Assembly: GCF_900129225.1 (NCBI RefSeq)
Contig: NZ_FQUG01000007.1
Span: 1 to 64,000 of the forward strand
From: Schwartzia succinivorans DSM 10502
GTDB taxonomy: Bacteria; Bacillota; Negativicutes; Selenomonadales; Selenomonadaceae
DNA length: 64,000 nucleotides
Direction of reading: 5' to 3'
The notes under the pieces were generated by a model that saw only the letters and a list, made by a program, of their open reading frames with translations, made no database searches and had not been told where the DNA came from. The position numbers and the translations under genes were made by a program. Positions 3,053-17,250 of the stretch are shown piece by piece; positions within the stretch are counted from its first letter, which is position 1; each line of letters starts with the position of its first letter.

Positions 3053-4294
3053 ATGTTTACATCACGATACAACCGACACTACAATCAGCTGAGGGAGTTT
3101 CTGCGGCTTTTATCCTACGGCTGCTATCATAAAACATATATAACAAAAGCACTGTCCATCTCTCCTGCCGCATACGACAAATATCTCAGTGAGATAAAAC
3201 AGATTCTTCCTATGGAACGGCTGCAGGAGGAAGGCTACGGGCATAGAATAATCCATGCCCTGAAGGGTGATACATATTACGGCTTCGACAACTATCTGCA
3301 TCAGCTGTTTGAGTCCAGCAGTATTCAGCCGCAGAAGCTTTCCATCATGCTCTGCATATTTCAGCTCCTCGGAAAAGCTTCATCACCTCTTTCTGCTCCT
3401 GACATTTACAAAAAAATCGTAAATGCTTCAGCCCCTCTGCGAGAAAAAGAGTCTATCTATGCCCCTTACGCCGAAGAAAAAACACTTCGCCGCATTATTG
3501 GTGAACTTGTGAAAGAAGGCGTCCTTACTGAAGGTAAAAAGGATAACCGCACAAAGCTATACAGTCTCGCGGATAATCCTCTGCAGGATCTAACCGATGA
3601 TGAAGCTCATACTCTTTTATACGCACTCACATGGTACTGCACAACAGCTAATTTCAGCGTTCCCGGTTTTTTCCTTACAGAAGTGCTTCGCCTAACATAC
3701 GGATTTAACGAAGAACGCTCTGCGGCTCAGTTCAAAAATATAGACCTTGCAAGAATCCTTGAGGATGAAAGCGTACTGACGATACTCTCCGCAATACAAA
3801 AGAAGGAATATATTTCCTGCCGGCTCAACGGCAGAAATACTACTATGCTGCCGCTCAAAATCATTACTGATTACCACAGACGACGCCGTTATCTCAGTGG
3901 TCTGGAAAAACGTGCCGGCAACACTTCCACGAAGTACAAGGAGCTGCGTACATCACGGCTGGACAAGCTGGAAAATATCCTTCCGGGCAAAGTATGCAGA
4001 AGCAAAAAAATTCCTTCTGTAACTGATAAAACAGTGCCTGTTACATTGGAAATCAAGGGTGATACGCCAACGCAGCTTTTATTTCTGCTAAGCAGTGTAT
4101 CGAGCCGGTTTCACAAGCTCGCCGTATCAGTAGACAACGAAATCTCCTGCCACTGTACTGTAAATGTTTCTGACCCGTTAAGTATAGCTCCGTGGGCACT
4201 TTCCTTCGTCGGCAATATCAAGGTTCTTCACCCAACCGTTCAGGGACGAATCAAAGAACAAATCAAGGAGGCTCTTACCCGTTATGAGCAATAA
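3053..4294 (+). CDS. WYL-domain transcriptional regulator, first of a pair
   Basis: The 413-residue protein has an N-terminal helix-turn-helix region, a second winged-helix region at about 120-175 (EKTLRRIIGELVKEGVL), a WYL-like core around 240-310 with YHRRRRYLSGLEKR, and a C-terminal WCX-like region ending IKEALTRYEQ. WYL proteins bind nucleic-acid or nucleotide ligands and commonly control phage-defence loci. The start follows GAGAGGAGCG. It overlaps the next WYL gene by 11 bp, so both are made together. It sits divergent from promoter 1 and opposite the Zorya-like operons, which suggests it controls them. Confidence 0.75.
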   Translation: MFTSRYNRHYNQLREFLRLLSYGCYHKTYITKALSISPAAYDKYLSEIKQILPMERLQEEGYGHRIIHALKGDTYYGFDNYLHQLFESSSIQPQKLSIMLCIFQLLGKASSPLSAPDIYKKIVNASAPLREKESIYAPYAEEKTLRRIIGELVKEGVLTEGKKDNRTKLYSLADNPLQDLTDDEAHTLLYALTWYCTTANFSVPGFFLTEVLRLTYGFNEERSAAQFKNIDLARILEDESVLTILSAIQKKEYISCRLNGRNTTMLPLKIITDYHRRRRYLSGLEKRAGNTSTKYKELRTSRLDKLENILPGKVCRSKKIPSVTDKTVPVTLEIKGDTPTQLLFLLSSVSSRFHKLAVSVDNEISCHCTVNVSDPLSIAPWALSFVGNIKVLHPTVQGRIKEQIKEALTRYEQ

Positions 4295-5285
4295 ACCGGA
4301 AAAAAATAATGTTAAAGCTCCTGAGCTTCTCTTTCCCGAAATACGAAGCCAGCAGTTTTTTATCTCCGCCGGCATCATAAACAGCATCTTGCGCGGTGAA
4401 ACAGTCACATTAGAGGAAGCGTCAGCAAAAATGTATCCTTCCCCTGAACGGGATACAGATAAAAGAGAAGAGCGTATTTCATACATAAAGCAGATACTCC
4501 CATTCACTTCGGGAAAGCAACCGGCTCCATATATCGAGGCCCCTGTCCCCGCAGCAGTATCAAATCTTGAAAAAAGCTGGCTGAAGTCCATGCTCAAGGA
4601 TAAACGGGGACAATTTCTTATCCCTGATCCTCTGCGCAAAAAGCTTCTTTCAAAGCTCAAAGATACGGAACCTCTTCCTCTTGATGCCTTTGAATCCATC
4701 CGTGAGACGGGGGACCCTACGAACGACGATAAATTCCAAAGCGTCCTTGCCACAGTTTGGAAAGCACTGGTAAAAAAACGCAAGATTTCCTATGAAAGTC
4801 TGGACGTAAAAGGTCAGTCCCACAGTGGAACAGTTTCCCCCTGCCGTCTTGAATACGACGCAACGGGCAACCGTTACCGCCTTATAGTTTGGCTTGAAGA
4901 CGAAAAGCGCTCCGTGAAAATAAACGTATCTCGGATAAAAAGCGTTAAATGCACAAAGGAACCAATACCTGACAATACAGAGAAGCAGTTCCAGAAATTC
5001 CTTGACTCTCACAGGAAAAGCTTCACTATGCGCCTGTTCAACGAGAGCAACGCCATAGACCGTGCATTCACTTTATTTGCGTCATACGATAAAACCGCAG
5101 ACTATGACGATACATCAGATACCTACGAAATGACGCTGTATTACTATGATTTTGATGAGCACGAAATCCTGCAGGCAATTCTCTCACTTGGCTCAGCTGC
5201 CATAGTCCTCGAACCTGAGGACCTCAGGAGCAAAGCCATTGAGTATTGGAAAAAGGCTGACGCTATTTACAACGCGGAGGAGTGA
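4284..5285 (+). CDS. WYL-domain protein, second of a pair
   Basis: The 333-residue protein has an N-terminal part of about 150 residues without a clear motif, then a WYL-type core from about 150 (ALVKKRKISYESL, then SPCRLEYDATGNRYRLIVW) and a WCX-like tail (FTLFASYDKTADYDD, ILSLGSAAIVLEPEDLRSK). It overlaps the previous gene by 11 bp with the ribosome site CAAGGAGG inside that gene. The pair probably acts as one regulator with split DNA-binding and ligand-sensing roles; that is inference. Its 3' end overlaps the convergent HNH gene by 19 bp. Confidence 0.75.
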   Translation: MSNKPEKNNVKAPELLFPEIRSQQFFISAGIINSILRGETVTLEEASAKMYPSPERDTDKREERISYIKQILPFTSGKQPAPYIEAPVPAAVSNLEKSWLKSMLKDKRGQFLIPDPLRKKLLSKLKDTEPLPLDAFESIRETGDPTNDDKFQSVLATVWKALVKKRKISYESLDVKGQSHSGTVSPCRLEYDATGNRYRLIVWLEDEKRSVKINVSRIKSVKCTKEPIPDNTEKQFQKFLDSHRKSFTMRLFNESNAIDRAFTLFASYDKTADYDDTSDTYEMTLYYYDFDEHEILQAILSLGSAAIVLEPEDLRSKAIEYWKKADAIYNAEE

Positions 5286-6151
5286 TGCCAGTACTCAGGT
5301 CCGGGCCATCCATAGAAAATGCGGTGCTGTGTCGTAATCCAGTCGTGGTCATGCTCACGAAGCAGAATCATGTTCGACGGTTCGTCCGCGCCGCCCTCGG
5401 ATAGCGGAACTATATGATGAACCTCCCAGCCATCGGGAACCTCGCTGAACCCATGCTCGGCAAGAAATGCATCCCTTGCTCCTGCATCGCGCACAACCTC
5501 AGTCAGATGCTCTGTGTCAGGCAGCTCCCCCTGCTCTGCAAGAACAGCCAGATTTTCAGGTGACGCATTCACCAGCATACCGTTCTGAACTCCCGGCAAA
5601 TCATCTACATCTACCTCAGGGAAGAGTCCTTCGGCAAAAATGTTGTCCCCATCAACGAAATCAACAAGCTCCGCTCCCGCAAGCACTACCCCTCCTGCCA
5701 GCGCGCACTGCTTCAAACGGTGCTTGAATCTGTTTTTTCGATCATGATCAGGTTCTTTATCTTTTCCTTTCTGATAGGCAATTACTGCTCCGTCTACTGC
5801 CGCTCCGCCTGCAGTTTTAATAAGCTGCCCTGCGCCGCGGACCTTGCGCATTTCCATATCTATAATTGTTTTTCCTGCTCCTTTGTAATCTCCGTCTATT
5901 ACCTGTGAGCCTGCTTTGAAACAGTCACGGGCCTTTCTATATAGACTTCCTATAACAGCGCCGCCAACAGCAGCACCAAATCTGGCTGTCTCATATGCAA
6001 AATGCCCCACAGCTTCCGCTGCTTCTCCGGCTTCACGCCGTCCCTGTTCAGTTCCCGCGTAGTAATCCACGCGTTTTTTTATACCGTCTGCTAACCACTG
6101 CACGGCCGCCCCCAGCTTCTTGAGTTCCTGCGGATTTTTTGTTTTTTCCAT
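5267..6151 (-). CDS. HNH nuclease with glycine-rich N-terminal region
   Basis: The 294-residue protein ends in an HNH domain: WEVHHIVPLSEGGADEPSN (H245, H246, N260) and LREHDHDWITTQH (H267, H269, H276). The first 180 residues are helical with two Gly/Ala-rich stretches, ARFGAAVGGAVIGSLYRKA and CALAGGVVLAGAELV, which could touch a membrane or pack helices. This architecture resembles effector or polymorphic-toxin nucleases; no immunity gene is obvious. It has its own island-type promoter and a strong AAGGAGG site. The HEPN protein upstream has a similar Gly/Ala-rich design. DNA cleavage is inferred from the HNH motif. Confidence 0.75.
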   Translation of the reverse strand: MEKTKNPQELKKLGAAVQWLADGIKKRVDYYAGTEQGRREAGEAAEAVGHFAYETARFGAAVGGAVIGSLYRKARDCFKAGSQVIDGDYKGAGKTIIDMEMRKVRGAGQLIKTAGGAAVDGAVIAYQKGKDKEPDHDRKNRFKHRLKQCALAGGVVLAGAELVDFVDGDNIFAEGLFPEVDVDDLPGVQNGMLVNASPENLAVLAEQGELPDTEHLTEVVRDAGARDAFLAEHGFSEVPDGWEVHHIVPLSEGGADEPSNMILLREHDHDWITTQHRIFYGWPGPEYWHHSSAL

Positions 6152-6253: not shown

Positions 6254-8293
6254 TTATGCAAACACCGCCATCATTTTCTGCATCACACGTTCAACATCAA
6301 TGAGCATGTCAAAGCATTCACGGGCTTCTTTTTCCTTCAGAGCATTTGTATGCGCCGCAGGGTTTCTGTATTTTTCCGTGACTATAGCGGCCTGCTCGGC
6401 AATTTCCTGAAGCATCTGCACTCTTTTATCTGCCGCAGCTTCAGGTTTAAGCAGCTTCTCTTCCGCGTATTCCATCATTATTTTGCAATCCTGTTCATGC
6501 ATTTTATCTGTTACATGACCGGGCATCTTTATGCCGCATATATACGGCATACTTCCTAGCGTAAATTTTTTCCTGCTGCGTTTGTACTCACCATTTCTTA
6601 CATCTCTGTCAGCAAAGCAGGACGGCCATTTTTCCGGGTACATTGCAAATGGAAAACGCTCTTCCACGTACCTCGAGTACTCGTCAAAAAACCGTTTTTT
6701 AAGTTCTATCTCCAATGCCTTTGCTGCCAAAAGGCATACTCCCGAATAATCCATATCTTCAGTAATAGCTTCCATCTGGGAATACATCACCTTTGCCGTA
6801 ATCAGATATTTTTTTGACAAAGGCATGAGTTTCTCCCAATCCGCGCCAAACTTCGCGGACAATTTTTTCTTCTGGGCCTCGCGCAGCACATTCCCCGAAA
6901 GCGCCGCCGATTCCATCAAACGCCCGATTACTTTATCAGCGAATTCGGATAAAGCCTCCTCAAAAGCCGCAGAATCCGACGTCTGCAAAGGCAGCTTTCC
7001 ACTCAATTCCCTTTGGAGCGCAGTAATTTCACGGCCATAACTCAGAATATCCGCCTTAATACTTCCGAGGGTTTCATCTATAGAATCCAAATGCCTCTCA
7101 ACACCCCTGATATGCTCATGGATTCCTTTCCCCATGGAACGTGCCACTTCATCAATATGTGATTTGATATCGTCCGCATAAACACTAATATCATATTGGG
7201 CCGCCACGGCCATACTTTTCTGTTCGCGTGAATTCAACGAAATAAAATATTCATACAGCCTTGTATGACACTTCACTGCTTTTTCACACATATCTGAAAA
7301 AGCAGGCTCAAATGCAGGAGATAGCTTCCTGTCCTTTTCGATAGGAATCTCCATAAAACCTATCAAGGTCATGGCAGCCTCCTCCAAGATAACGCGATAA
7401 GCGGAGCTGTCGCCCACAGCCTCTGCGACCGCAGCCATATTCAACATTTCATGGAAGAACCCGCAAAAGGAATACATCTCCGCTCCGAGGGCACGAAAAG
7501 CTCTTCTGATGCTGTCCAGACGCAGACGCTCAGCATCTACACGCTCCCCATACTCAATGACTTCTTTAACAAATGTTTGCGCTTTTTCATAATCCTTATC
7601 GACCTTCCAAGCAGCCGCCCATGCGGTGGCGGCAGCCGCCGGAACAGCAACGATCGAGCCAAGCACGACCGCTCCTCCGGCCATTCCAAGCCCACCTGCC
7701 GCCAGTGAACCGCCGCCAAACGCCGCAAGGAGTGCATGTCCATACGCGGCTCCCGACAGCGATGCAAGAGCCGTTCCTGTACTTGCAGAACCAAGTGCCG
7801 TCATTGCGCCCACTGCCAGTGCCCCGGCGGTAGCTCCTGCAGCTGCTCCTGTTCCCGCACATGAAACAACCGGCCCGGCTGCGCGTTCCACCTCAGGTTT
7901 ATAAAGCGCCTCTTCGTCACCATGCCGTCCTGCCGAGGCAATCGGTGTAGTATCCGCATACTTGCAGAATTTCGCATATAAAAGGAGTGGCCCTTTATCC
8001 ATGCGTTCAATCAAATCACGAAAATTTTCAAGCTCCTGAGTCAATCCGCTGCGTGCTGCAGCCTCTTTTGCCTGAAACTTATTCAGTGTTTCATTTCCTT
8101 CCTCAATGATTCTTTCGGTTTCCTTGTAAAGCGCATGTTTTTCCTGAGCAAAGGTTTTCAAATCTCCTGCTTTTCTAGCCACAAAATCTGTACCGGCTTC
8201 CGCCGCTGTACCTATTACCTTTGCCCCTTCTTTTGTTCCCTTGGCTATCTGTCCAACGGCTTTATCAAAATTTTCCTTTGTAAAAAAACTCAT
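6254..8293 (-). CDS. Membrane-associated HEPN RNase-like effector
   Basis: In order, the 679-residue protein has helical/coiled-coil N-terminal 130 residues, a Gly/Ala-rich hydrophobic block at 141-229 (AAAGATAGALAVGAM, AAGGLGMAGGAVVLGS) of glycine-zipper type, a long helical middle, and a C-terminal domain with LAAKALEIELKKRF and YRNPAAHTNALKEKEA. RNPAAH (R643, N644, H648) is the R-x4-H motif of HEPN RNases. HEPN proteins are typical abortive-infection effectors that cut RNA. A membrane-attached HEPN beside a ZorAB-like pair suggests a signal-triggered effector; that is inference. It is transcribed from its own promoter (8333-8361), after the terminator of the helicase unit. Confidence 0.7.
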   Translation of the reverse strand: MSFFTKENFDKAVGQIAKGTKEGAKVIGTAAEAGTDFVARKAGDLKTFAQEKHALYKETERIIEEGNETLNKFQAKEAAARSGLTQELENFRDLIERMDKGPLLLYAKFCKYADTTPIASAGRHGDEEALYKPEVERAAGPVVSCAGTGAAAGATAGALAVGAMTALGSASTGTALASLSGAAYGHALLAAFGGGSLAAGGLGMAGGAVVLGSIVAVPAAAATAWAAAWKVDKDYEKAQTFVKEVIEYGERVDAERLRLDSIRRAFRALGAEMYSFCGFFHEMLNMAAVAEAVGDSSAYRVILEEAAMTLIGFMEIPIEKDRKLSPAFEPAFSDMCEKAVKCHTRLYEYFISLNSREQKSMAVAAQYDISVYADDIKSHIDEVARSMGKGIHEHIRGVERHLDSIDETLGSIKADILSYGREITALQRELSGKLPLQTSDSAAFEEALSEFADKVIGRLMESAALSGNVLREAQKKKLSAKFGADWEKLMPLSKKYLITAKVMYSQMEAITEDMDYSGVCLLAAKALEIELKKRFFDEYSRYVEERFPFAMYPEKWPSCFADRDVRNGEYKRSRKKFTLGSMPYICGIKMPGHVTDKMHEQDCKIMMEYAEEKLLKPEAAADKRVQMLQEIAEQAAIVTEKYRNPAAHTNALKEKEARECFDMLIDVERVMQKMMAVFA

Positions 8294-8397: not shown

Positions 8398-8430
8398 TCA
8401 AAAGACCGCCCACAATAAAGTGAGCGGTCT
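8398..8430 (-). terminator. Terminator of the helicase/coiled-coil unit
   Basis: The minus strand reads AGACCGCTCAC, TTTATT loop, GTGGGCGGTCT, then TTTTGATA. It sits 40 bp after the coiled-coil gene's stop. Confidence 0.85.
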
Positions 8431-8471: not shown

Positions 8472-9152
8472 TCAATGGGATTTCTTTTCCTGAACCTCGC
8501 TCAAAAAGCGTTTCAATGATTTGCTGTCGCTGTGCACCATTTTTTCAATCAGACGCTGCAGTGATTCATGCTCACCGCGTTTAAGCTGTGTCTCGCAGAG
8601 AGCCTTCTGCACTCCCGACAGAAGCTGATTAACTGCATTCTTCTGCTTACATCCTTTTAGAGCTATATTATATTCATGCATCAGAATATCGTAATCATGC
8701 TCCGTGATGTGGCGGTACTCATAGGTAGCAGACTGCTTGGTTTCCTCAGCAATGGCATTCATGGCTTTTACGGCATTCGCAAAATCCTTGTTATAGAGCT
8801 TCTGCGTCAGGCTGTCTACACGATGGTTGAATTCCTTCATTCTGTCCTCGAAGTTTCTTACGGCATATCTGAATCGTCCCAAAACCTTCGTACGCTCTGC
8901 AAGACCGTCCTCTCCGTCCTGAACTGCACGGAAAAGCTCAACCAGCCGCGACGTCTGTTCCATCATTTCTTCAATCTGATCACCATACTCTCGAAATACA
9001 TCTGCGGCTTTTTCCTGCGCGACGTTTTCTTTTAGCTCTACCATATAACGGTTCAGCCGCCCGATGTATTTTTCTATCTCCTCCAATCCTTTTTGGTAGC
9101 CTATTATTGATTCGCAGACCTTCTGCAGGTCTTCCTTCGTATCAAATGACAT
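8472..9152 (-). CDS. Coiled-coil protein of the Zorya-like island
   Basis: The 226-residue protein is almost entirely charged alpha-helix with heptad-like patterns (LEEIEKYIGRLNRYMVEL, FRYAVRNFEDRMKEFNHRV) and has no signal peptide or membrane segment. It starts 3 bp after the helicase stop, so it is translationally linked to it and is probably its partner or an adaptor to the helical ZorA-like tail. I recognise no family. The terminator at 8398-8430 follows. Confidence 0.6.
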   Translation of the reverse strand: MSFDTKEDLQKVCESIIGYQKGLEEIEKYIGRLNRYMVELKENVAQEKAADVFREYGDQIEEMMEQTSRLVELFRAVQDGEDGLAERTKVLGRFRYAVRNFEDRMKEFNHRVDSLTQKLYNKDFANAVKAMNAIAEETKQSATYEYRHITEHDYDILMHEYNIALKGCKQKNAVNQLLSGVQKALCETQLKRGEHESLQRLIEKMVHSDSKSLKRFLSEVQEKKSH

Positions 9153-9155
9153 GGT

Positions 9156-12100
9156 TTATTCCTCCCATTCGGCAGCGGTCTGCCTGATTTTATTTATTTC
9201 ATTCTCCGTCTGTTCAAGCATTTTCTCAGTCCATCTGTGGAATGGCTCAGCGGCAAAGGGATAAAGCTCCAGCGCCTCATAAAACGCCTCGTAAAAGCCG
9301 GCCTTGCTTCCATACTTGTATGTCCATTCTCTTTTTGCCATAGTCAGCAAATCTTTTTCGCCCCGTCGCGACAGCAGATAAGCCCCGAGAAATTCCGCGC
9401 CCTCGATATCCGGATGTCCGAGAATGCCGTCAACGCTGTTTTCTCTGGTGCGTCCACGGTCATTCCAGTCTGCGTCGAGATTTGCATAGCTTTCAACGGC
9501 CTGATGGAAATCTCCGCGCTTTTCCATAACCTTTCCTCTGCAGTAGGCAATCATGTTTTTATCTTTACCTTCCTGTGTAAAAATGCTTAGTGCCAGCTCG
9601 TACTGTCCGAAGTTAAGCGCGTTCTCTGCTGTTTCCATACGGTTCTCGTCGGCATTTTCACTAACGCACTGGTAAATATATCCCAGCCATGTCAGACCGT
9701 CCTCCTTCGCAGGGGCAAAAAGGTTGTCGCATCGGTCGATAAGTCCCGCTTCTGCCGCATTGGACAGGAAATCATATGTGCCCGTCCCAGGCACGGCATC
9801 CTTTTCATAAATCAGCAGGCAGCGGTTTCCCCTGGTCGCACCGACATAGAAATACTTCCATGCCATGCCCGAATCAAATCTCGTTTCGGTGAGAACGTTA
9901 TACAGGAGCACAGATGGATACTCCATTCCCTTGCAGCTTACAACGTCTGTAACCGCGTCTGAGTCGTCAAGCGGAAAGTCTTTCTTTGCAGCTGATGCCG
10001 GGAAAGCGAAGATTGTCTGCAGCTCGCTGGCATCCAGCTTTTTCCATAAATCTTCAATCAGAGTCCTTTGATTTTCATCACTTGGTGTAATCCATATCGG
10101 CCTCACGCCAAGCGGAGTAAGCGGCGGAGCGATGATTTTCTCAGTCTCCATCTGCTTCAGAGTAAGGATGTCGTTGTCCCTCAGGTATCTGACCGCATAA
10201 TTCTGAAAGTCAATAATGCTGCGGCTTGAGCGGTAGTTGTAGTGCAGATAGCGTGGTTTTAGCTCAGCATTTTCCATTTTTTTGCCAAGCCTGCGGTCAT
10301 ATTCATTGGCTGTTGTACGCATCCAGCCTTCATCGAAATACGTCGGCTGTACCATCTGACAGCGGTCAGAGGACATACGCTTTACCTTCACGCCTCCCAG
10401 CAGATGAAAGATTGCCAAAAGCTCCATCTGCGTCAGGTCCTGACACTCATCCACGAATACGGCTGCGTATGTCTTACTCTTACCAGGCTTTATCTGCAGC
10501 AGCATCCTCGCGACATCGTTGTCATCGAGAAGCTGGCGTCTGCGAAGATAGTCACGGTATTTTTCGTAGGTTTTATACAGCGTATCCACCCATCGTATAT
10601 TGCGTACGCTGTCCTTCTTTTCCTGACGAAGCCGTTCCTTATATGCTTTCTCCGACAAAACCTCAGGAATTTTCCCCATGCTTCCGTAGTCTACGTCTTT
10701 GGGAACCGCGCCCTTTAGAATTCCGTGAATTTCACGCCACGCGGCCAACAGCACCGCTTCTTCGCTTTGCATGGCAGACTGCTCGTCCATGTAATTCCTG
10801 AACTGCTTCCAGTCTACTTCCTCAGCCCAAAAGCGTCTGAACAGAGCAAAGCTTTGCGCCGCATTCAAAAGACGGTTCTCCGCTATTTTCGGATATTTGC
10901 TTTTAAAGCTGCTTCTGAGGAAATCAAAGGTCGTTCGAATATCCGCACGGGATGCGTCCTTATCTGCCAGCCGGCCTTTATTAAACTCAAATTCCAGTGT
11001 GTACACCAGATTTTCGGACATAGTCAGATAAAGGCAGTCATGCTTGGGCTTTTTAAGCTGGTCGTTCAGCCATTTAAGACCTACCACGGATTTACCTGCC
11101 CCTGCGTTTCCGATGACGGACAGATTTTCTGCCTTTTCCCCGCTCTCGATGATTGCTTCCTGATCCTTGTCAAAAATAAAATGACGCGGCGTGCTCATGT
11201 AATCCCCGAAGCTCATACTCCTGTCCTTTTCGGGCCAGGTTTCCATCTGCCGCAGAAAATCCTCCATATCGTAATATACGTAACCGATGGCCTTCCCATG
11301 GATATTCCGGATATCAGCCATCTGTCTGTCATGGTTGCTGAATTTCAAAAGCGTCAGAATGCCATCCCTGAATACCATGCTCAGGCGGTTTTTCCCGATT
11401 CGCCGCTTAAAGACACGGCGCCCCAAAGGTGATACAAGTCGAAAATCATTTCCCGCCGCCCTGCTGTTTCCACGGAAAATCTGCTCCATCTTGATGAGCC
11501 GTTCGGAAAATGTACTGCAAAAACGCTTCTGTGCCTCAGGGGGCATTCCCCTGAAAACATGCTTGTCGAACTGCACTCCTCTGAATATTGGGCTCCCTAC
11601 AGTATGCGTATCTTCTTTGACAATCGGAAGCACAGGGGCTTCATCCCTTATTTCTTCAGCATATACGGCTGGCACCTTCTGCTCTGATATAGCCTTGGCT
11701 TTTTTTCGTGCTGCTCTGGCTTTCGCCTTTTTTATTTTCTTGCTTTCCTTTGTTATGTTCTCCTTCATGCAGTCGTCATTCTCACTTTCATCAGCTTCCT
11801 CAGCCTCCTGCTGCGGAAGCTCTAAATGTAGTGCTTCTGCTAAAATATCTCCAAGATTTGTCTGTAATTTTGCAGTTTTATATATTTGGGGCGAAGGCTC
11901 TTCCTTTTGGAATCTGTTCCTCATCCATTCCAGTACTTTATCCAAATCCCCGGAGGAATAGACAACAGGCATATCCTTCTTTTCAGTACTGAGAAACCAC
12001 TGTTTCTTCTTTTTATAAACGGAATATTTGACGTTGTTTCCTTTCTTCCATGTATTTCTTTCTATCCACTGCTCCGCAGCAAACTTACTGTAAAACTTCT

Positions 12101-13673
12101 CTCCGCACGCACAGGGAAAACCTTTACGCGCTTTGTCAAATTCCGCCTTATCCGTGAAGATACCAATACTCCAGCCCTTAGCAACCGCGTAGTAAATTTT
12201 TGCTTCCGGTGACTGCATATCCGTATCATTAAGCTCTGCATTCGGATTATATGCCTTCTCATAAATCCAACGCCCCCAGCAGAATAAGCAAAAATCCCGA
12301 ACAGCAGATATGAAAGCAGCATTGATTTCGTAATGCTTTATGTAATTCGAAGAAAACTCCACAGGATTAGTTTTACACATCCCATGACTTATACAATCAC
12401 GGATTTCCTCGTAAAGTGTCATATCAGGGAATTTGAAACCGTGATGCATCAGAATATTCTCGTCAAATTCTTTGCAGAACGCTTTCAGTTCATTGTTACG
12501 TTTCAAATCAATTTCCTCTACAACATGGCTTCTATGATTCCCCCTGCGAAGCTCCCATGCCAGAATCTGTCCTGTTTCTTCATCAAATACACAGGCAAGA
12601 AGGAAATGCATTCCATCCGACACGTCATAAACTCCAAACTGAGGGTAATCGGTAAACTGCTCCTCGTGCCATGGAATAATCTGTATCGCATAACCGTAAG
12701 TTCCATCCCTTTCCAGTATTTCACGCATTTTTTCCGCGTGTTCCAGGCAGCGGAACTCAGCAATATTCTCAATTTCTCCTTCCCCCTTTACAAGACGGAA
12801 CTGCATGGCACTGCGCGCTTCAAGACGCTCTGTATTGGTTTTTATCCACGTCAGCTGTGCTTTCCTTACATGTTGAATTTCTTCTTTTACAGTTTCTTCT
12901 TTTTCGACTTTCTCTTTTATTGTTTCCTCTTGTATTTCTTCATGTTCACACTCTGCAACAGATTCTTCATTTTCATTCGTTGTCTGACGCACTAACTTTT
13001 GATGGCATACAGAAATCAGGTTCTTCATCAAGAGCTTGTAGCCTGACGGTATGGATGCCGCCTTCATCCATTCGGATGTAATCTGCCCGGGCTGCTTAAA
13101 ACGGTAATCATACCACCGTTCTGCAATACGGGCTTCGCAGGCGGCAGCATAGTCGTATCCGCGGCTTTGTCCAAAAGCGATAAGGTCAAGTGTCTCCCGG
13201 GTAAAGCCTGCCCATTTGTAATCTGTTCTGCCGGATTTTACTTTCTCCTGAATTGATATATCCAGAAATCTCTCAAGACGTTCGGCAAGCAGCTGCCTTG
13301 GGTTGCTTGTGTGTTTTATTTCTTTTATGGTTTTTGTAAAATTTATTATTTCGTGATTTGCCGCTAAAATTTCCGTGTTTTCCCTGTCCCAGCGTTCCTT
13401 GCGTGATTCCTCACGGGCTGCGCTTTTACCGAAACGTCTGTCGCGCATCTGTTCAAGCCATAACTTTGCCTCATCGTAACTATCAAAGACACGTCCACGC
13501 GCACATGCGCATCCGGATGCATCAGGAGATACATTGAGCGCTCTGCTGTACATCGCCTCGTCATCAAAAATACCTGTCATAGCCCCTTCTGCAACAGCGT
13601 AATACCTCTTGGAAATATTTGCATCAGGACCGTCATCCACCATTGTGTCCACAGCAGTCTGTGTATTCTGCAC
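9156..13673 (-). CDS. SF1 helicase with two RNase HI-N (viroplasmin)-like domains
   Basis: This is a 1505-residue protein. Residues 22-76 (KRYYAVAEGAMTGIF, then FDSYDEAKLWLEQ) and 492-540 (KIYYAVAKGWSIGIFTD, then FAAEQWIERN) both match the hybrid-binding fold at the N-terminus of RNase HI. A weaker third copy may lie at 548-590. A Lys/Ala-rich linker (645-665) leads to a UvrD/Rep-like SF1 motor: Walker A GNAGAGKS (855-862), Walker B VFVDECQD (1072-1079), SSDRCQ (motif III, 1101-1106), YNYRSS (1145-1150), VVSCKGMEYPS (motif V, 1244-1254), YVGATRG (motif VI, 1276-1282). The C-terminal part is helical and TPR-like. It probably unwinds nucleic acid, perhaps RNA:DNA hybrids. It uses island promoter 3. 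Confidence 0.8.
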   Translation of the reverse strand: MQNTQTAVDTMVDDGPDANISKRYYAVAEGAMTGIFDDEAMYSRALNVSPDASGCACARGRVFDSYDEAKLWLEQMRDRRFGKSAAREESRKERWDRENTEILAANHEIINFTKTIKEIKHTSNPRQLLAERLERFLDISIQEKVKSGRTDYKWAGFTRETLDLIAFGQSRGYDYAAACEARIAERWYDYRFKQPGQITSEWMKAASIPSGYKLLMKNLISVCHQKLVRQTTNENEESVAECEHEEIQEETIKEKVEKEETVKEEIQHVRKAQLTWIKTNTERLEARSAMQFRLVKGEGEIENIAEFRCLEHAEKMREILERDGTYGYAIQIIPWHEEQFTDYPQFGVYDVSDGMHFLLACVFDEETGQILAWELRRGNHRSHVVEEIDLKRNNELKAFCKEFDENILMHHGFKFPDMTLYEEIRDCISHGMCKTNPVEFSSNYIKHYEINAAFISAVRDFCLFCWGRWIYEKAYNPNAELNDTDMQSPEAKIYYAVAKGWSIGIFTDKAEFDKARKGFPCACGEKFYSKFAAEQWIERNTWKKGNNVKYSVYKKKKQWFLSTEKKDMPVVYSSGDLDKVLEWMRNRFQKEEPSPQIYKTAKLQTNLGDILAEALHLELPQQEAEEADESENDDCMKENITKESKKIKKAKARAARKKAKAISEQKVPAVYAEEIRDEAPVLPIVKEDTHTVGSPIFRGVQFDKHVFRGMPPEAQKRFCSTFSERLIKMEQIFRGNSRAAGNDFRLVSPLGRRVFKRRIGKNRLSMVFRDGILTLLKFSNHDRQMADIRNIHGKAIGYVYYDMEDFLRQMETWPEKDRSMSFGDYMSTPRHFIFDKDQEAIIESGEKAENLSVIGNAGAGKSVVGLKWLNDQLKKPKHDCLYLTMSENLVYTLEFEFNKGRLADKDASRADIRTTFDFLRSSFKSKYPKIAENRLLNAAQSFALFRRFWAEEVDWKQFRNYMDEQSAMQSEEAVLLAAWREIHGILKGAVPKDVDYGSMGKIPEVLSEKAYKERLRQEKKDSVRNIRWVDTLYKTYEKYRDYLRRRQLLDDNDVARMLLQIKPGKSKTYAAVFVDECQDLTQMELLAIFHLLGGVKVKRMSSDRCQMVQPTYFDEGWMRTTANEYDRRLGKKMENAELKPRYLHYNYRSSRSIIDFQNYAVRYLRDNDILTLKQMETEKIIAPPLTPLGVRPIWITPSDENQRTLIEDLWKKLDASELQTIFAFPASAAKKDFPLDDSDAVTDVVSCKGMEYPSVLLYNVLTETRFDSGMAWKYFYVGATRGNRCLLIYEKDAVPGTGTYDFLSNAAEAGLIDRCDNLFAPAKEDGLTWLGYIYQCVSENADENRMETAENALNFGQYELALSIFTQEGKDKNMIAYCRGKVMEKRGDFHQAVESYANLDADWNDRGRTRENSVDGILGHPDIEGAEFLGAYLLSRRGEKDLLTMAKREWTYKYGSKAGFYEAFYEALELYPFAAEPFHRWTEKMLEQTENEINKIRQTAAEWEE

Positions 13674-13839: not shown

Positions 13840-14748
13840 TCAATGGAGCTGCTTAAATCCACCTTCTATTTCATGAATATGGTCATGGCAGTCCTCGCAT
13901 ATGACTGCTAAATTCTTGGGAGAATTATTTCCCTTATTGTGATCTTTATGGTGAATCTGCAGAGCGTCCGGGCGCTTCCTCTGTCCGCAATATTCACATT
14001 TGAAGCCGCGTGATTCCTTTAATTCGAATTTTTCCTTACCGGTTAATCTATATGCATCATCCAAGGACGCGGCTGCCGAATACAAATTCAGCTTACCGGC
14101 AAAATATTCATCCTCTACCTTTGCAAAGAATTCTTTGATGCTGAACCGTCTTACTATATTAAACCGTCCCGCAGGATCACCTCCGTTATACCATACCCCA
14201 ATTCCTGTGTTGTTACAGTACCGATTAAAGTTTTTCCAGTTTAACATTCTCAGACAGCTTTGACATACATGAAGGCGCTCTGTTCTCCCTTCTTCCTCAA
14301 AAAATATTTCTCCATCGTAACCTTTTACCTTCAGGTTGACTATAAACTCCCCGCTAAGATTATTTGTGACGACATATCTTTGAAGTTTATTTTTGCGTAT
14401 ATTCTCCTGCAGCTGTTCGCAGTAGCATATATGAAAAGGATTGAATTTTCCTTTTTCATGCTGTTCCATGGAGTGGTATTGGTCTTTAATATAAACCATC
14501 ATGGGGCGGCGTTTGTAAAAAATGAAGCTGTTAGGGCTGCAAAACTCTATATTTTCGTTTCGCAGTCCATTCTCAACCTCAAGGCCCGTTGTTTTCAGCT
14601 TAAGCTCTAGAGCATGATCTATCTTCGGCAGCTGAAGCTTTCTCCTGGCCAGTTCCACATCTTCCCCGGAGATATTCAATTTTTTCAGAACCGCAGCAAA
14701 GGCATTCATAATTCCACGATGCTGCTCAATACCTGATTTCTTCGCCAT
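13840..14748 (-). CDS. HNH endonuclease, ZorE-like position
   Basis: The 302-residue protein has a C-terminal HNH domain with zinc Cys pairs: CEYCGQ (C251, C254), LQIHHKDHNKGNNSPKNL (H266, H267, N279), VICEDCHDHIH (C284, C287). An additional HVCQSC pair sits mid-protein. The N-terminal 150 residues show no named domain. The gene overlaps the ZorB-like gene by 23 bp, so it belongs to the same transcript. Zorya type II is defined by ZorA, ZorB and the HNH protein ZorE; this gene occupies the same place, but I cannot confirm homology to ZorE beyond the HNH motif. Confidence 0.8.
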   Translation of the reverse strand: MAKKSGIEQHRGIMNAFAAVLKKLNISGEDVELARRKLQLPKIDHALELKLKTTGLEVENGLRNENIEFCSPNSFIFYKRRPMMVYIKDQYHSMEQHEKGKFNPFHICYCEQLQENIRKNKLQRYVVTNNLSGEFIVNLKVKGYDGEIFFEEEGRTERLHVCQSCLRMLNWKNFNRYCNNTGIGVWYNGGDPAGRFNIVRRFSIKEFFAKVEDEYFAGKLNLYSAAASLDDAYRLTGKEKFELKESRGFKCEYCGQRKRPDALQIHHKDHNKGNNSPKNLAVICEDCHDHIHEIEGGFKQLH

Positions 14749-15388
14749 ATAATTTTCTCAACTCCTGTTCTGCGTCAGTCAGGACACGGAATTCGACACG
14801 GCGGTCATTTTCTGCGTTGTCAGACGCATGACCGTAGGAAAGTCCGTTTGCCGTAATATAAGGCTTCAGCCATTCCTTATCATCCTTCTGTCCCGCCCTG
14901 GGAAATACGTATTGAAGAACATTCCTTGCTCTGTCCTGGGACAGCTTCATATTGTAAAGATATGCCGCATCCGATGCAGCATCGCCATTCCATTCCTTGG
15001 ATGCATGCCCTTCTATACGTATCTCAGAGATTTTACCTTTATACTTGTCGCTTTTCAAAACTGCGACATATCTCGGGAAAAATGAATTCAAAATCTCCTG
15101 AAATCTTGGCTTCAGGGCAGAGGCCCCGACATCGAAAAGTACATCCGGTTCCTTAAATTCAACAGCCATTGTTTGGGGATTTATTATTGCCCCCCATCCC
15201 TTTAATTCCTCTTGTGAAAATTCCTTTGAGAGATCCGCATATATTTCTCTTTTGGTCTCTAAATATGTGTTTTTATTTTGCTCAATCTGATACAAAAACG
15301 AAAGTGCAATAAAAAGAAATACCATCATCAGCCCTGTCATAAGGTCAGAAACTGACTCCCAAAAATTTCCTCCTTCTCTGGAAAACAT
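14726..15388 (-). CDS. ZorB-like MotB/OmpA-family protein
   Basis: The 220-residue protein has one N-terminal membrane helix (about 15-34, SDLMTGLMMVFLFIALSFLY) with Asp15 where MotB/ZorB carry the ion-channel aspartate. A periplasmic OmpA-like peptidoglycan-binding domain covers about 75-205 (EIRIEGHAS, LSQDRARNVLQYVF, ENDRRVEFRVL). MotB-type subunits bind the cell wall and form an ion-driven motor with the MotA-type partner. It starts in a TAATG overlap with the ZorA-like stop, so the two are translationally coupled. Relation to Zorya is inferred from domain order and the helical-tailed partner. Confidence 0.8.
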   Translation of the reverse strand: MFSREGGNFWESVSDLMTGLMMVFLFIALSFLYQIEQNKNTYLETKREIYADLSKEFSQEELKGWGAIINPQTMAVEFKEPDVLFDVGASALKPRFQEILNSFFPRYVAVLKSDKYKGKISEIRIEGHASKEWNGDAASDAAYLYNMKLSQDRARNVLQYVFPRAGQKDDKEWLKPYITANGLSYGHASDNAENDRRVEFRVLTDAEQELRKLYGEEIRY

Positions 15389-17250
15389 TATTTTTCACCT
15401 CGTGATACAAGAAGTCTGTCGACTTCTGCGATTTTTTCTGTCAATGTCTCATAGTTTTCAACCATCTGCTCTGAAATCTTAGCCAGCGTACCTGCAAGAG
15501 TTTCTACTGCCTGTTCTCCCTGTTTCCCCGTATTTTCAGTGATTGTCGCGAACTGCGCATTAAGCTCGGCTATAGCTTCAGTAATTGCCTTATTGAAATC
15601 AACATCAAAGCCTTCCAGCGTACTGCTGATACGCTGCAGTGATTTTTCCATCATAGTGTCATATTTATCGAGCTTGTCGCTAATGCTGAGATAGAAATCT
15701 TCACTGACTTTATTGACCATTCCAAGACTTTCCTCAAGCGCCTTCTGTTCCTTGCTCCAGCGTATTTCCTGTGCAGTGCCAAGGTCGTCGATTTTCTCAT
15801 TGATTGTCCGACTATACTTTTCAATCATCTTTTCGGAGCTGTTCATCATGCGCTCGTTCATTTCCTTTGCTTCCGCCGCAATGCTTTCCATCGCAGAAGA
15901 TGCCTGGCGTGCAAATTCATCCATATTATCCTTGTTCTGACGGATATAAGCATCGCTTTGTCTGCTGAACTCTGTGACCGCATTTTTCATGTTCTCGCTG
16001 TTTTTGATTATTTCCTCTCGCGTCTGCAGCAGCTCCTGCGCAAATCTTTCATTAAGGGATGCATAGTCTTTATATCCAGTCAGACACTTGTTGATGTTCT
16101 CAAGAGAATCCTTTGTTTCAGGTACCACCTTCTGAGAAAACTCGAAGAACATCGAGTTAGCCGCTTTCATTTCCTCGGTAGCGTCTACAATCGTCTGCTT
16201 GTAATCTTTCTGCCATTCATTAAGCTCTTTGACCGACTCATCGAGATGACGGAAATTATCTCCCAGCTGTTCTGTCAGCTGCTGATTAAGTTCCTGAATA
16301 GATTTATTAAGCGCTTCGATAAATGCTTCATTGTTTCTCTTGGCCATGTCATCCAGGAATTTATCAAAGGATTCCTTCATTCCGGCTATCTGGGCAGTAT
16401 TTCCTTCAAGCTGCTCCAAGGATGCCTGCTGAGATGCAATGCTCTTTTCGTGAAAAGCATTCGTTATATTAATCAGACTGAGGGAGTTTTCATATGACTC
16501 TTTTGTAGTTTCTGCCATAGAGCTGATATTGCTGCCCATGCTTTCCAGCAAGGCGGCCTGTTTTGCATTCGATTCATTTAACTGCATGCTCAAACCGCTT
16601 ATTTGAGTCCTCATAACATCTGCCAGGTTATTCATATTCTGCTGAGCAGCTGCAGTTCCCTGGGTAAATGCTCTGAGCGCCTGTCCAAGCTCTGATAACT
16701 GTGACCCAAGCTCTGCGGAATTTGTACGTCCTATGCTTATGTTAACATTATCAATCCCTTCTTTAATCTGCGTCAGGCCTTGTGTCAGGCAGTAATATAC
16801 CTGATTAAGAACATCATTATTTCTCTGTCCTACGCTTCTATCACCACTATCAATTCCCTCTTTGACTTGCGTCAGACAGTCATACAACCGGTTAAGAACA
16901 TCATTATTTTTCTGTGTGATTTGTTCTTTGCCTTCAATAACATCTGACTGCTTCGATTTTATGTATATGCCAAAACCCATACCCAGCAATGAGGTTACAA
17001 AGGCTGTCTTCATTCCGCTTAGGAATGCTCCGATGCTTTCTGCGATATTTGTGCTGTTAAAATTGAATAAAGCGATTGTGATACCGATAAAGGTAAAGAA
17101 AACACCTACCGTCAGAGCATTTTGCGCTCCGTTATCGACTCTTCCCTCTTTTACCGCATTTAATGAGCGCTTTCTAATAAACAAAAGTCCGAAAACACAT
17201 AATATACAGCATACTACTGTTGTTGAATCCCAATTAAAAATATTCTCCAT
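15388..17250 (-). CDS. ZorA-like MotA/TolQ/ExbB protein with long helical tail
   Basis: The 620-residue protein has three N-terminal membrane segments (about 10-26, 45-63, 78-97). The last two carry the MotA/TolQ/ExbB pattern VGVFFTFIGITIALFNF and LSGMKTAFVTSLLGMGFGI. The remaining 500 residues are predicted coiled coil, as in ZorA, whose cytoplasmic tail is held to carry the signal to DNA-degrading effectors. An internal duplication is visible: NNDVLNRLYDCLTQ (115-128) and NNDVLNQVYYCLTQ (144-157). It starts at ATG 17250 behind AGGAGGATATAACAAGG and is first in an operon with ZorB-like and HNH genes. Confidence 0.8.
   Translation of the reverse strand: MENIFNWDSTTVVCCILCVFGLLFIRKRSLNAVKEGRVDNGAQNALTVGVFFTFIGITIALFNFNSTNIAESIGAFLSGMKTAFVTSLLGMGFGIYIKSKQSDVIEGKEQITQKNNDVLNRLYDCLTQVKEGIDSGDRSVGQRNNDVLNQVYYCLTQGLTQIKEGIDNVNISIGRTNSAELGSQLSELGQALRAFTQGTAAAQQNMNNLADVMRTQISGLSMQLNESNAKQAALLESMGSNISSMAETTKESYENSLSLINITNAFHEKSIASQQASLEQLEGNTAQIAGMKESFDKFLDDMAKRNNEAFIEALNKSIQELNQQLTEQLGDNFRHLDESVKELNEWQKDYKQTIVDATEEMKAANSMFFEFSQKVVPETKDSLENINKCLTGYKDYASLNERFAQELLQTREEIIKNSENMKNAVTEFSRQSDAYIRQNKDNMDEFARQASSAMESIAAEAKEMNERMMNSSEKMIEKYSRTINEKIDDLGTAQEIRWSKEQKALEESLGMVNKVSEDFYLSISDKLDKYDTMMEKSLQRISSTLEGFDVDFNKAITEAIAELNAQFATITENTGKQGEQAVETLAGTLAKISEQMVENYETLTEKIAEVDRLLVSRGEK

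Follow-up and report, generated by a model that had tools for sequence, protein, structure and literature searches.

A gene in the 64,000-nucleotide stretch of Schwartzia succinivorans DSM 10502 analyzed here (hereafter the window) encodes a multi-domain superfamily 1 (SF1) helicase, HEL, that carries two domains with the RNase HI N-terminal fold (hybrid-binding domains, HBDs) in which the residues of the canonical hybrid-binding surface have been replaced, and the gene is paired with one for a 226-residue helical/coiled-coil protein, p226. We infer for HEL and p226 a role in defense, probably against phage, and give about even chances to the reading in which the two form a stand-alone module whose variable N-terminus would serve as an exchangeable sensor of a putative ligand.

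Domain architecture of the helicase

HEL (positions 9156-13673, minus strand) is UvrD/Rep-like and 1505 amino acids long, and a strong Shine-Dalgarno-like sequence, GAAAGGGGG, lies ~6 nt 5' of its GTG start. The SF1A helicase core (residues 833-1314; 9732-11177, minus strand) has motifs Q and I-VI all intact, with Walker A at residue 855, DECQD at 1075, SDRCQM at 1102, YNYRSS at 1145, CKGMEYP at 1247 and YVGATR at 1276. It also has the UvrD/Rep fold: the core model superposes on Rep (1uaa) with a Z score of 20.8 over 410 residues and on UvrD as well, and helicases take up the match lists of structure searches with this model (VIA, Foldseek). The Pfam UvrD score lies under the cut-off (19.5 versus 23 bits), and when PDB sequences were searched with the core, UvrD alone matched (E-value 0.0026) and no closely related structure turned up. 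Motifs and superposition thus bear out the UvrD-like motor that an earlier note on this DNA had proposed. C-terminal to the core is a TPR-like helical-repeat region (residues 1328-1505; 9159-9692, minus strand) with a weak TPR_Slam match and an all-helical model of high pLDDT.

The core is preceded by a conserved domain (residues 697-805; 11259-11585, minus strand) that is predicted to consist of a strand, two helices, four strands and a helix. RelE/ParE toxins show the same order of strand, two helices and four strands. When compared with a profile built from ParE-type toxins of the same bacterial family, this domain can be aligned over its whole length, with an arginine-rich strand pair in register, in a weak hhalign match (probability 15-24%; P 1.6e-4 to 4e-4 as a single comparison), and neither Pfam nor PDB sequences gave a RelE/ParE match to it. 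We tentatively regard the domain as possibly RelE/ParE-like, as a lead only.

The two HBDs lie in the N-terminal half, HBD1 at residues 22-75 (13449-13610, minus strand) and HBD2 at residues 492-539 (12057-12200, minus strand), around the motifs YYAVAEG (residue 24) and YYAVAKG (residue 494), where the earlier note had placed RNase HI N-terminal folds. PF01693 matches HEL in two separate stretches (E-value 3.2e-9 and 37.3 bits for the whole protein, cut-off 21). Circularity was avoided by building an HMM solely from 17 Selenomonadaceae RNase HI N-domains, with which the two stretches score 12.4 and 15.4 bits, compared to a maximum of 4.3 among 1000 shuffles of HEL. In AlphaFold2 models both domains show a strand-strand-helix-strand-helix topology at a pLDDT that is mostly ~70-87 but weak in the HBD1 loop formed by residues 49-56. 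The HBD2 model matches the human RNase H1 HBD (3BSU) with a Foldseek TM score of 0.86 by target length, and residues 491-539 superpose on it in VIA with a Z score of 8.6 and an rmsd of 1.3 A over 49 residues. Two domains of this fold are therefore present as claimed, HBD2 being assigned by profile and structural superposition, and HBD1 by Pfam/HMM profile and predicted topology. The mismatch of predicted folds that would have refuted the note was not seen, as judged for HBD2 by superposition and for HBD1 by topology and profile. The note was also right that HEL lacks an RNase H catalytic domain: Pfam gave no PF00075 match and there is no YTDG motif, and the controls L036 and L106 do give PF00075.

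With three sequences, the AlphaFold2 model of the HEL N-terminus averages a pLDDT of only 50, and its generally poor quality yields no domain reading for residues 240-490 and 545-690. A helical region at residues 158-235 (12969-13202, minus strand) is modeled at a pLDDT of ~80 and is also recognizable in relatives that lack HBDs. We also noted a small strand-helix-strand unit at residues ~285-340 (window 12650-12820), for example FRCLEHAEKMREIL and VAVFHDKHDVQLAGRIL, which recurs in L042, L043 and L044, in N-termini with and without HBDs.

Distribution, divergence and the p226 gene

Strong homologues of HEL occur sporadically, in 11 of 189 Selenomonadaceae genomes and 7 of 30 genera, and none of comparable strength was found elsewhere in the class. 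The stretch conserved between genomes spans residues ~695-1500. In every pair compared the core is more similar than the N-terminus, with 80 versus 37% identity for the nearest relative, a Schwartzia metagenome-assembled genome (MAG), and 59/24, 60/24, 67/36 and 92/82% for the other pairs. The helicase has four HBDs in the Schwartzia MAG, two in the window, one in SUG1706 and none in Anaerovibrio, Selenomonas and others, most family members being HBD-less. Since the HBDs are optional and vary from 0 to 4 copies across the family, the mechanism cannot be centered on them. Three of the four HBDs in the Schwartzia MAG are near-copies of one another, which points to recent duplication.

We found no phage match for HEL and no relatives in viral contigs, and enterobacterial plasmids, many of them resembling Shigella virulence plasmids, gave matches to the helicase core only, at 23% identity; on these grounds a phage or plasmid origin was rejected.

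The gene for p226 (8472-9152, minus strand) begins 3 nt past the HEL stop codon, and a terminator-like 11-bp stem with a T run (8403-8430, minus strand) just after it closes the HEL-p226 unit. HEL is accompanied by a small p226-type gene at 8 of the 12 loci examined, the window included. The homologues are 82% (L025), 55% (L026), 45% (L044) and 44% (L042) identical to p226, the matches in L028 and L029 are weak but in the right position, and the gene in L030 is matched by size and motif. At L027, HEL is followed by a coiled-coil gene unrelated to p226.

The altered hybrid-binding surface

In the human RNase H1 HBD, W43 and F58 form the DNA-strand groove, Y29, R57 and K60 contact DNA phosphates, and the RNA 2'-OH groups are contacted by the backbone amides at positions 52 and 55 (PMC9603397). 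In a sensor with tandem human HBDs, the substitutions W43A or KK59/60AA abolish focal R-loop binding and are reported to impair RNA:DNA binding (PMC10639055). Upon alignment to the human HBD, W43, F/Y58 and K59 are kept in 17 of 17 HBDs of Selenomonadaceae RNase HI used as controls, compared to W43 in 0 of 7 and an aromatic residue 58 in 0 of 7 HBDs of the HEL family, where position 43 is E, K, V, V, A, V and E and position 58 is G, G, A, A, M, A and S. K59/K60 are changed in most of them. In the window, HBD1 carries W43E and F58G together with a 6-residue insertion within the RNA-contact loop, and HBD2 carries W43K, F58G and K59E. The core fold residues A30, G34, F40, F61 and A67 are retained, as is Tyr29 in 6 of 7 HEL HBDs, and several have a GFP-type RNA-contact loop. 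With the fold core kept and the surface residues replaced, the HEL HBDs are folded but altered domains. To judge by sequence, they lack the canonical hybrid-binding surface (W43, F/Y58, K59/K60) and in this respect are unlike HBDs of the canonical type.

The inference drawn in the earlier note, that the fold implies binding of RNA:DNA hybrids, is therefore unsupported, as W43, F58 and K59/K60 are replaced in both window HBDs. We consider it rather unlikely that the HBDs recognize RNA:DNA hybrids or dsRNA in the manner of RNase H1 and deliver the motor to R-loops or to intermediates of phage transcription, which it would unwind. Such activity would fit the fold, as seen in the superposition on 3BSU. 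Tyr29 persists in most HEL HBDs and the GFP-type loop in several, and some of the RNA 2'-OH contacts, being made by main-chain amides (PMC9603397), could survive. The engineered sensor RHINO senses R-loops with tandem HBDs (PMC10639055), and the UvrD-family helicase PcrA is able to unwind DNA-RNA hybrids and keeps R-loops in check (PMC8318588), a precedent that makes an R-loop role feasible for the HEL motor. Weighing against it, however, are the loss of both W43 and F58 from all HEL HBDs and of K59/K60 from most, given the failure of the corresponding human mutants, the insertion in the RNA-contact loop of HBD1 and the lack of any HBD in most family members. A bacterial HBD without W43/F58 might nevertheless still bind hybrids.

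HBDs of the same altered kind exist outside HEL. When the 189 family genomes were searched with a profile of the HEL HBDs, the seven HEL domains alone scored 89-103 bits; the matches that came next had at most 47 bits and belonged to ORFs of much smaller size, the majority about as long as an RNase H. One of these proteins, of 366-438 amino acids, combines an RNase H domain with two HBDs and occurs in at least 13 relatives as well as in the genome of the window itself; its HBD1 has D42, Y46 and non-aromatic residues 43 and 58 in common with the HEL HBDs; a branch of HBDs without the canonical grip is thus present beyond HEL. On the basis of sequence, a common origin of the HEL HBDs and those of the two-HBD RNase H is likely, a 50-residue tree being no proof. 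The loci of this RNase H, L106:1268-2470 (G000:C10:101267-102469), L114 and L149-L162, cover at least 14 Selenomonadaceae genomes; neither HBD has W43 or an aromatic residue 58, and conservation is strong, with E57 invariant and a basic residue at 60. A separate fusion, of an HBD to a DEDDh exonuclease domain (289 amino acids; L035:7288-8157, G130), was seen in another Negativicutes family.

A second HBD-helicase, with the order HBD-UvrD-HBD-methyltransferase-like, is encoded ~12 kb upstream of an HBD-less HEL in two Anaerovibrio genomes (L107:8337-11915 in G154, 1192 amino acids; L108:8213-11785 in G151, 1190 amino acids). Its HBD1 retains W43 and Y58, and a wider search at a strict threshold returned these two Anaerovibrio genomes only. 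The occurrence of HBDs with a UvrD motor in a second protein indicates that the pairing arose more than once, which lends some independent support to the coupling idea of the earlier note, in which this fold, joined twice to a UvrD-like motor, suggested sensing or unwinding of R-loops or phage transcription intermediates.

The loss of the DNA-strand contacts alongside retention of A30, G34, F40, F61 and A67 would also be expected if the HEL HBDs had given up nucleic-acid binding and become protein-protein modules, whose partner might be RNA polymerase, a protein of the phage or something else. The human HBD is known to bind a protein, P32 (PMC3750045), and the rapid divergence of the HEL N-terminus would fit a protein arms race. 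We nonetheless hold this reading to be not very probable: p226 is retained where HEL has no HBD (L042, L044, L028, L029) and is thus an unlikely HBD ligand, and the conservation of the similarly modified two-HBD RNase H in many relatives suggests a persisting nucleic-acid role. The loss of the grip throughout an HBD branch, comprising HEL and the conserved two-HBD RNase H, raises the question of which ligand is bound by HBDs that lack W43/F58.

In the module that we favor, HEL would consist of a UvrD/Rep-type SF1A motor driven by ATP, a conserved and possibly RelE/ParE-like domain just ahead of it, helical repeats at the C-terminus, and a fast-changing N-terminus that would serve as the exchangeable sensor and set the docking target. 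In the branch of the window, this sensor would have acquired RNase HI N-domains that are kin to the variant HBD of the two-HBD RNase H of the same bacteria. Because the canonical DNA-strand grip is lost, the ligand is most likely other than a standard RNA:DNA hybrid, and the HBDs would most likely recognize either a protein or a duplex that contains RNA or is distorted; sensing of RNA-containing phage intermediates by HEL is possible. The HBDs would dock the motor on intermediates formed as the phage replicates or is transcribed, and the motor would then act on these or on phage DNA, with a presumed contribution from p226. A more elaborate version strikes us as very doubtful, namely an anti-phage system of two genes whose UvrD-type motor, by means of a variable array of re-engineered HBDs, senses a non-canonical, RNA-containing structure of phage replication and thereby licenses an associated RelE-like effector domain.

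Defense setting and relation to known systems

Upstream of HEL, on the same strand, lies a Zorya II system (13840-17250, minus strand) with ZorA (15388-17250), ZorB (14726-15388) and ZorE (13840-14748) all present and a gap of 166 nt between ZorE and HEL. Zorya II, the p226 gene and the domain ahead of the motor all went unmentioned in the earlier note. Other HEL loci neighbor IetAS (L032), a TmtA-like gene (L033), a pAgo-like gene (L025) or Cas6 and a truncated Cas1 (L026), and the Anaerovibrio copies L042 and L044 have metabolic genes on one side; the argument from these neighborhoods is one of guilt by association. At L026:3-1826, beside the one-HBD helicase, Cas6 is followed by a Cas1 that ends after ~175 residues and is fused in frame to a stretch resembling the window protein p679 (27% identity), which looks like recombination within a CRISPR locus. 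In the window, p679 (6254-8293, 679 amino acids) has a hydrophobic Ala/Gly-rich segment and weak similarity to PADLOC PDC-M09A (45 bits) and may be a further defense gene; directly downstream on the same strand lies a gene for a 294-residue HNH endonuclease (5267-6151). A regulator-like pair, p413 (413 amino acids) and a WYL-domain protein, occupies 3053-5285, and in two Anaerovibrio genomes (L042, L044) HEL-p226 adjoins a divergent regulator pair homologous to it, making p413 and the WYL gene a possible shared defense-island regulator.

The core of HEL is nearest to UvrD/Rep/PcrA structures, and the known roles of these helicases are repair and conflict resolution. It is very improbable, however, that HEL is a niche genome-maintenance helicase that resolves R-loops or replication conflicts and has no part in defense, in view of its presence in 11 of 189 genomes, its fast-changing N-terminus, the variable HBD number and the repeated defense-gene neighbors. 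We regard as extremely unlikely, and rejected on co-occurrence, the idea that the neighboring Zorya II employs HEL and p226 as accessory subunits: they are immediate neighbors on the same strand, ZorE is a nickase (PMC11890865) whose nicks a neighboring motor could use, and a Druantia III helicase is reported to synergize with Zorya II via shared DNA intermediates (PMC13192584), but the 11 HEL genomes and the 8 genomes with a close ZorE (E-value <1e-25) overlap only in that of the window, four other Zorya II loci of the family consist of ZorABE without HEL or p226, ZorABE is at no other HEL locus, and the 166-nt gap separates ZorE from HEL.

Compared to known systems, HEL shares with UvrD/Rep/PcrA all motor motifs and the fold, but its identity to them is only 13-15%, and it carries in addition the N-terminal region taken to be the sensor and helical repeats at the C-terminus. 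Gabija GajB, the best PADLOC match of HEL at 22.7 bits, is likewise a UvrD-like motor in a defense setting, but HEL is far longer (the GajB profile has 594 positions) and its partner is the 226-residue p226, not the nuclease GajA. In Gabija, GajA is an OLD-family nuclease adjacent to GajB; it was absent from the scanned neighbors of HEL (ZorABE, p226, p679), and with a GajB match of just 22.7 bits HEL was not assigned to Gabija. The Anaerovibrio HBD-UvrD-HBD protein resembles HEL in joining a UvrD helicase to two HBDs, but is much nearer to classical UvrD, has a C-terminal methyltransferase-like domain and lacks p226.

The HEL HBDs have the fold, the YYAV-x2-G-x3-GIF motif and the length of those of RNase HI/RNase H1 (PF01693; 3BSU, 1QHK), but sit on an SF1 motor without an RNase H domain, lack W43 and F58 with K59/K60 mostly changed, and have the D42/Y46 variant common to the Selenomonad two-HBD RNase H. 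RNase LS/RnlA-type HEPN toxins fused to viroplasmin domains show that an HBD can occur in a protein of the anti-phage type, and differ from HEL in having a HEPN RNase and no helicase (PMC3710099); this was the only precedent found in the literature searched, which yielded no HBD-helicase fusions. Each part of HEL-p226 belongs to a known type. In the portion of the literature that was covered, we found no account of their combination, of HBDs modified in this way or of the varying copy number, so that any novelty is provisional. If HEL-p226 is a defense module, it would represent a natural transfer of RNase H1-type HBDs onto an SF1 motor, multiplied to between 0 and 4 copies, and the conserved core and variable HBDs would make the sensor open to domain swaps between close relatives.
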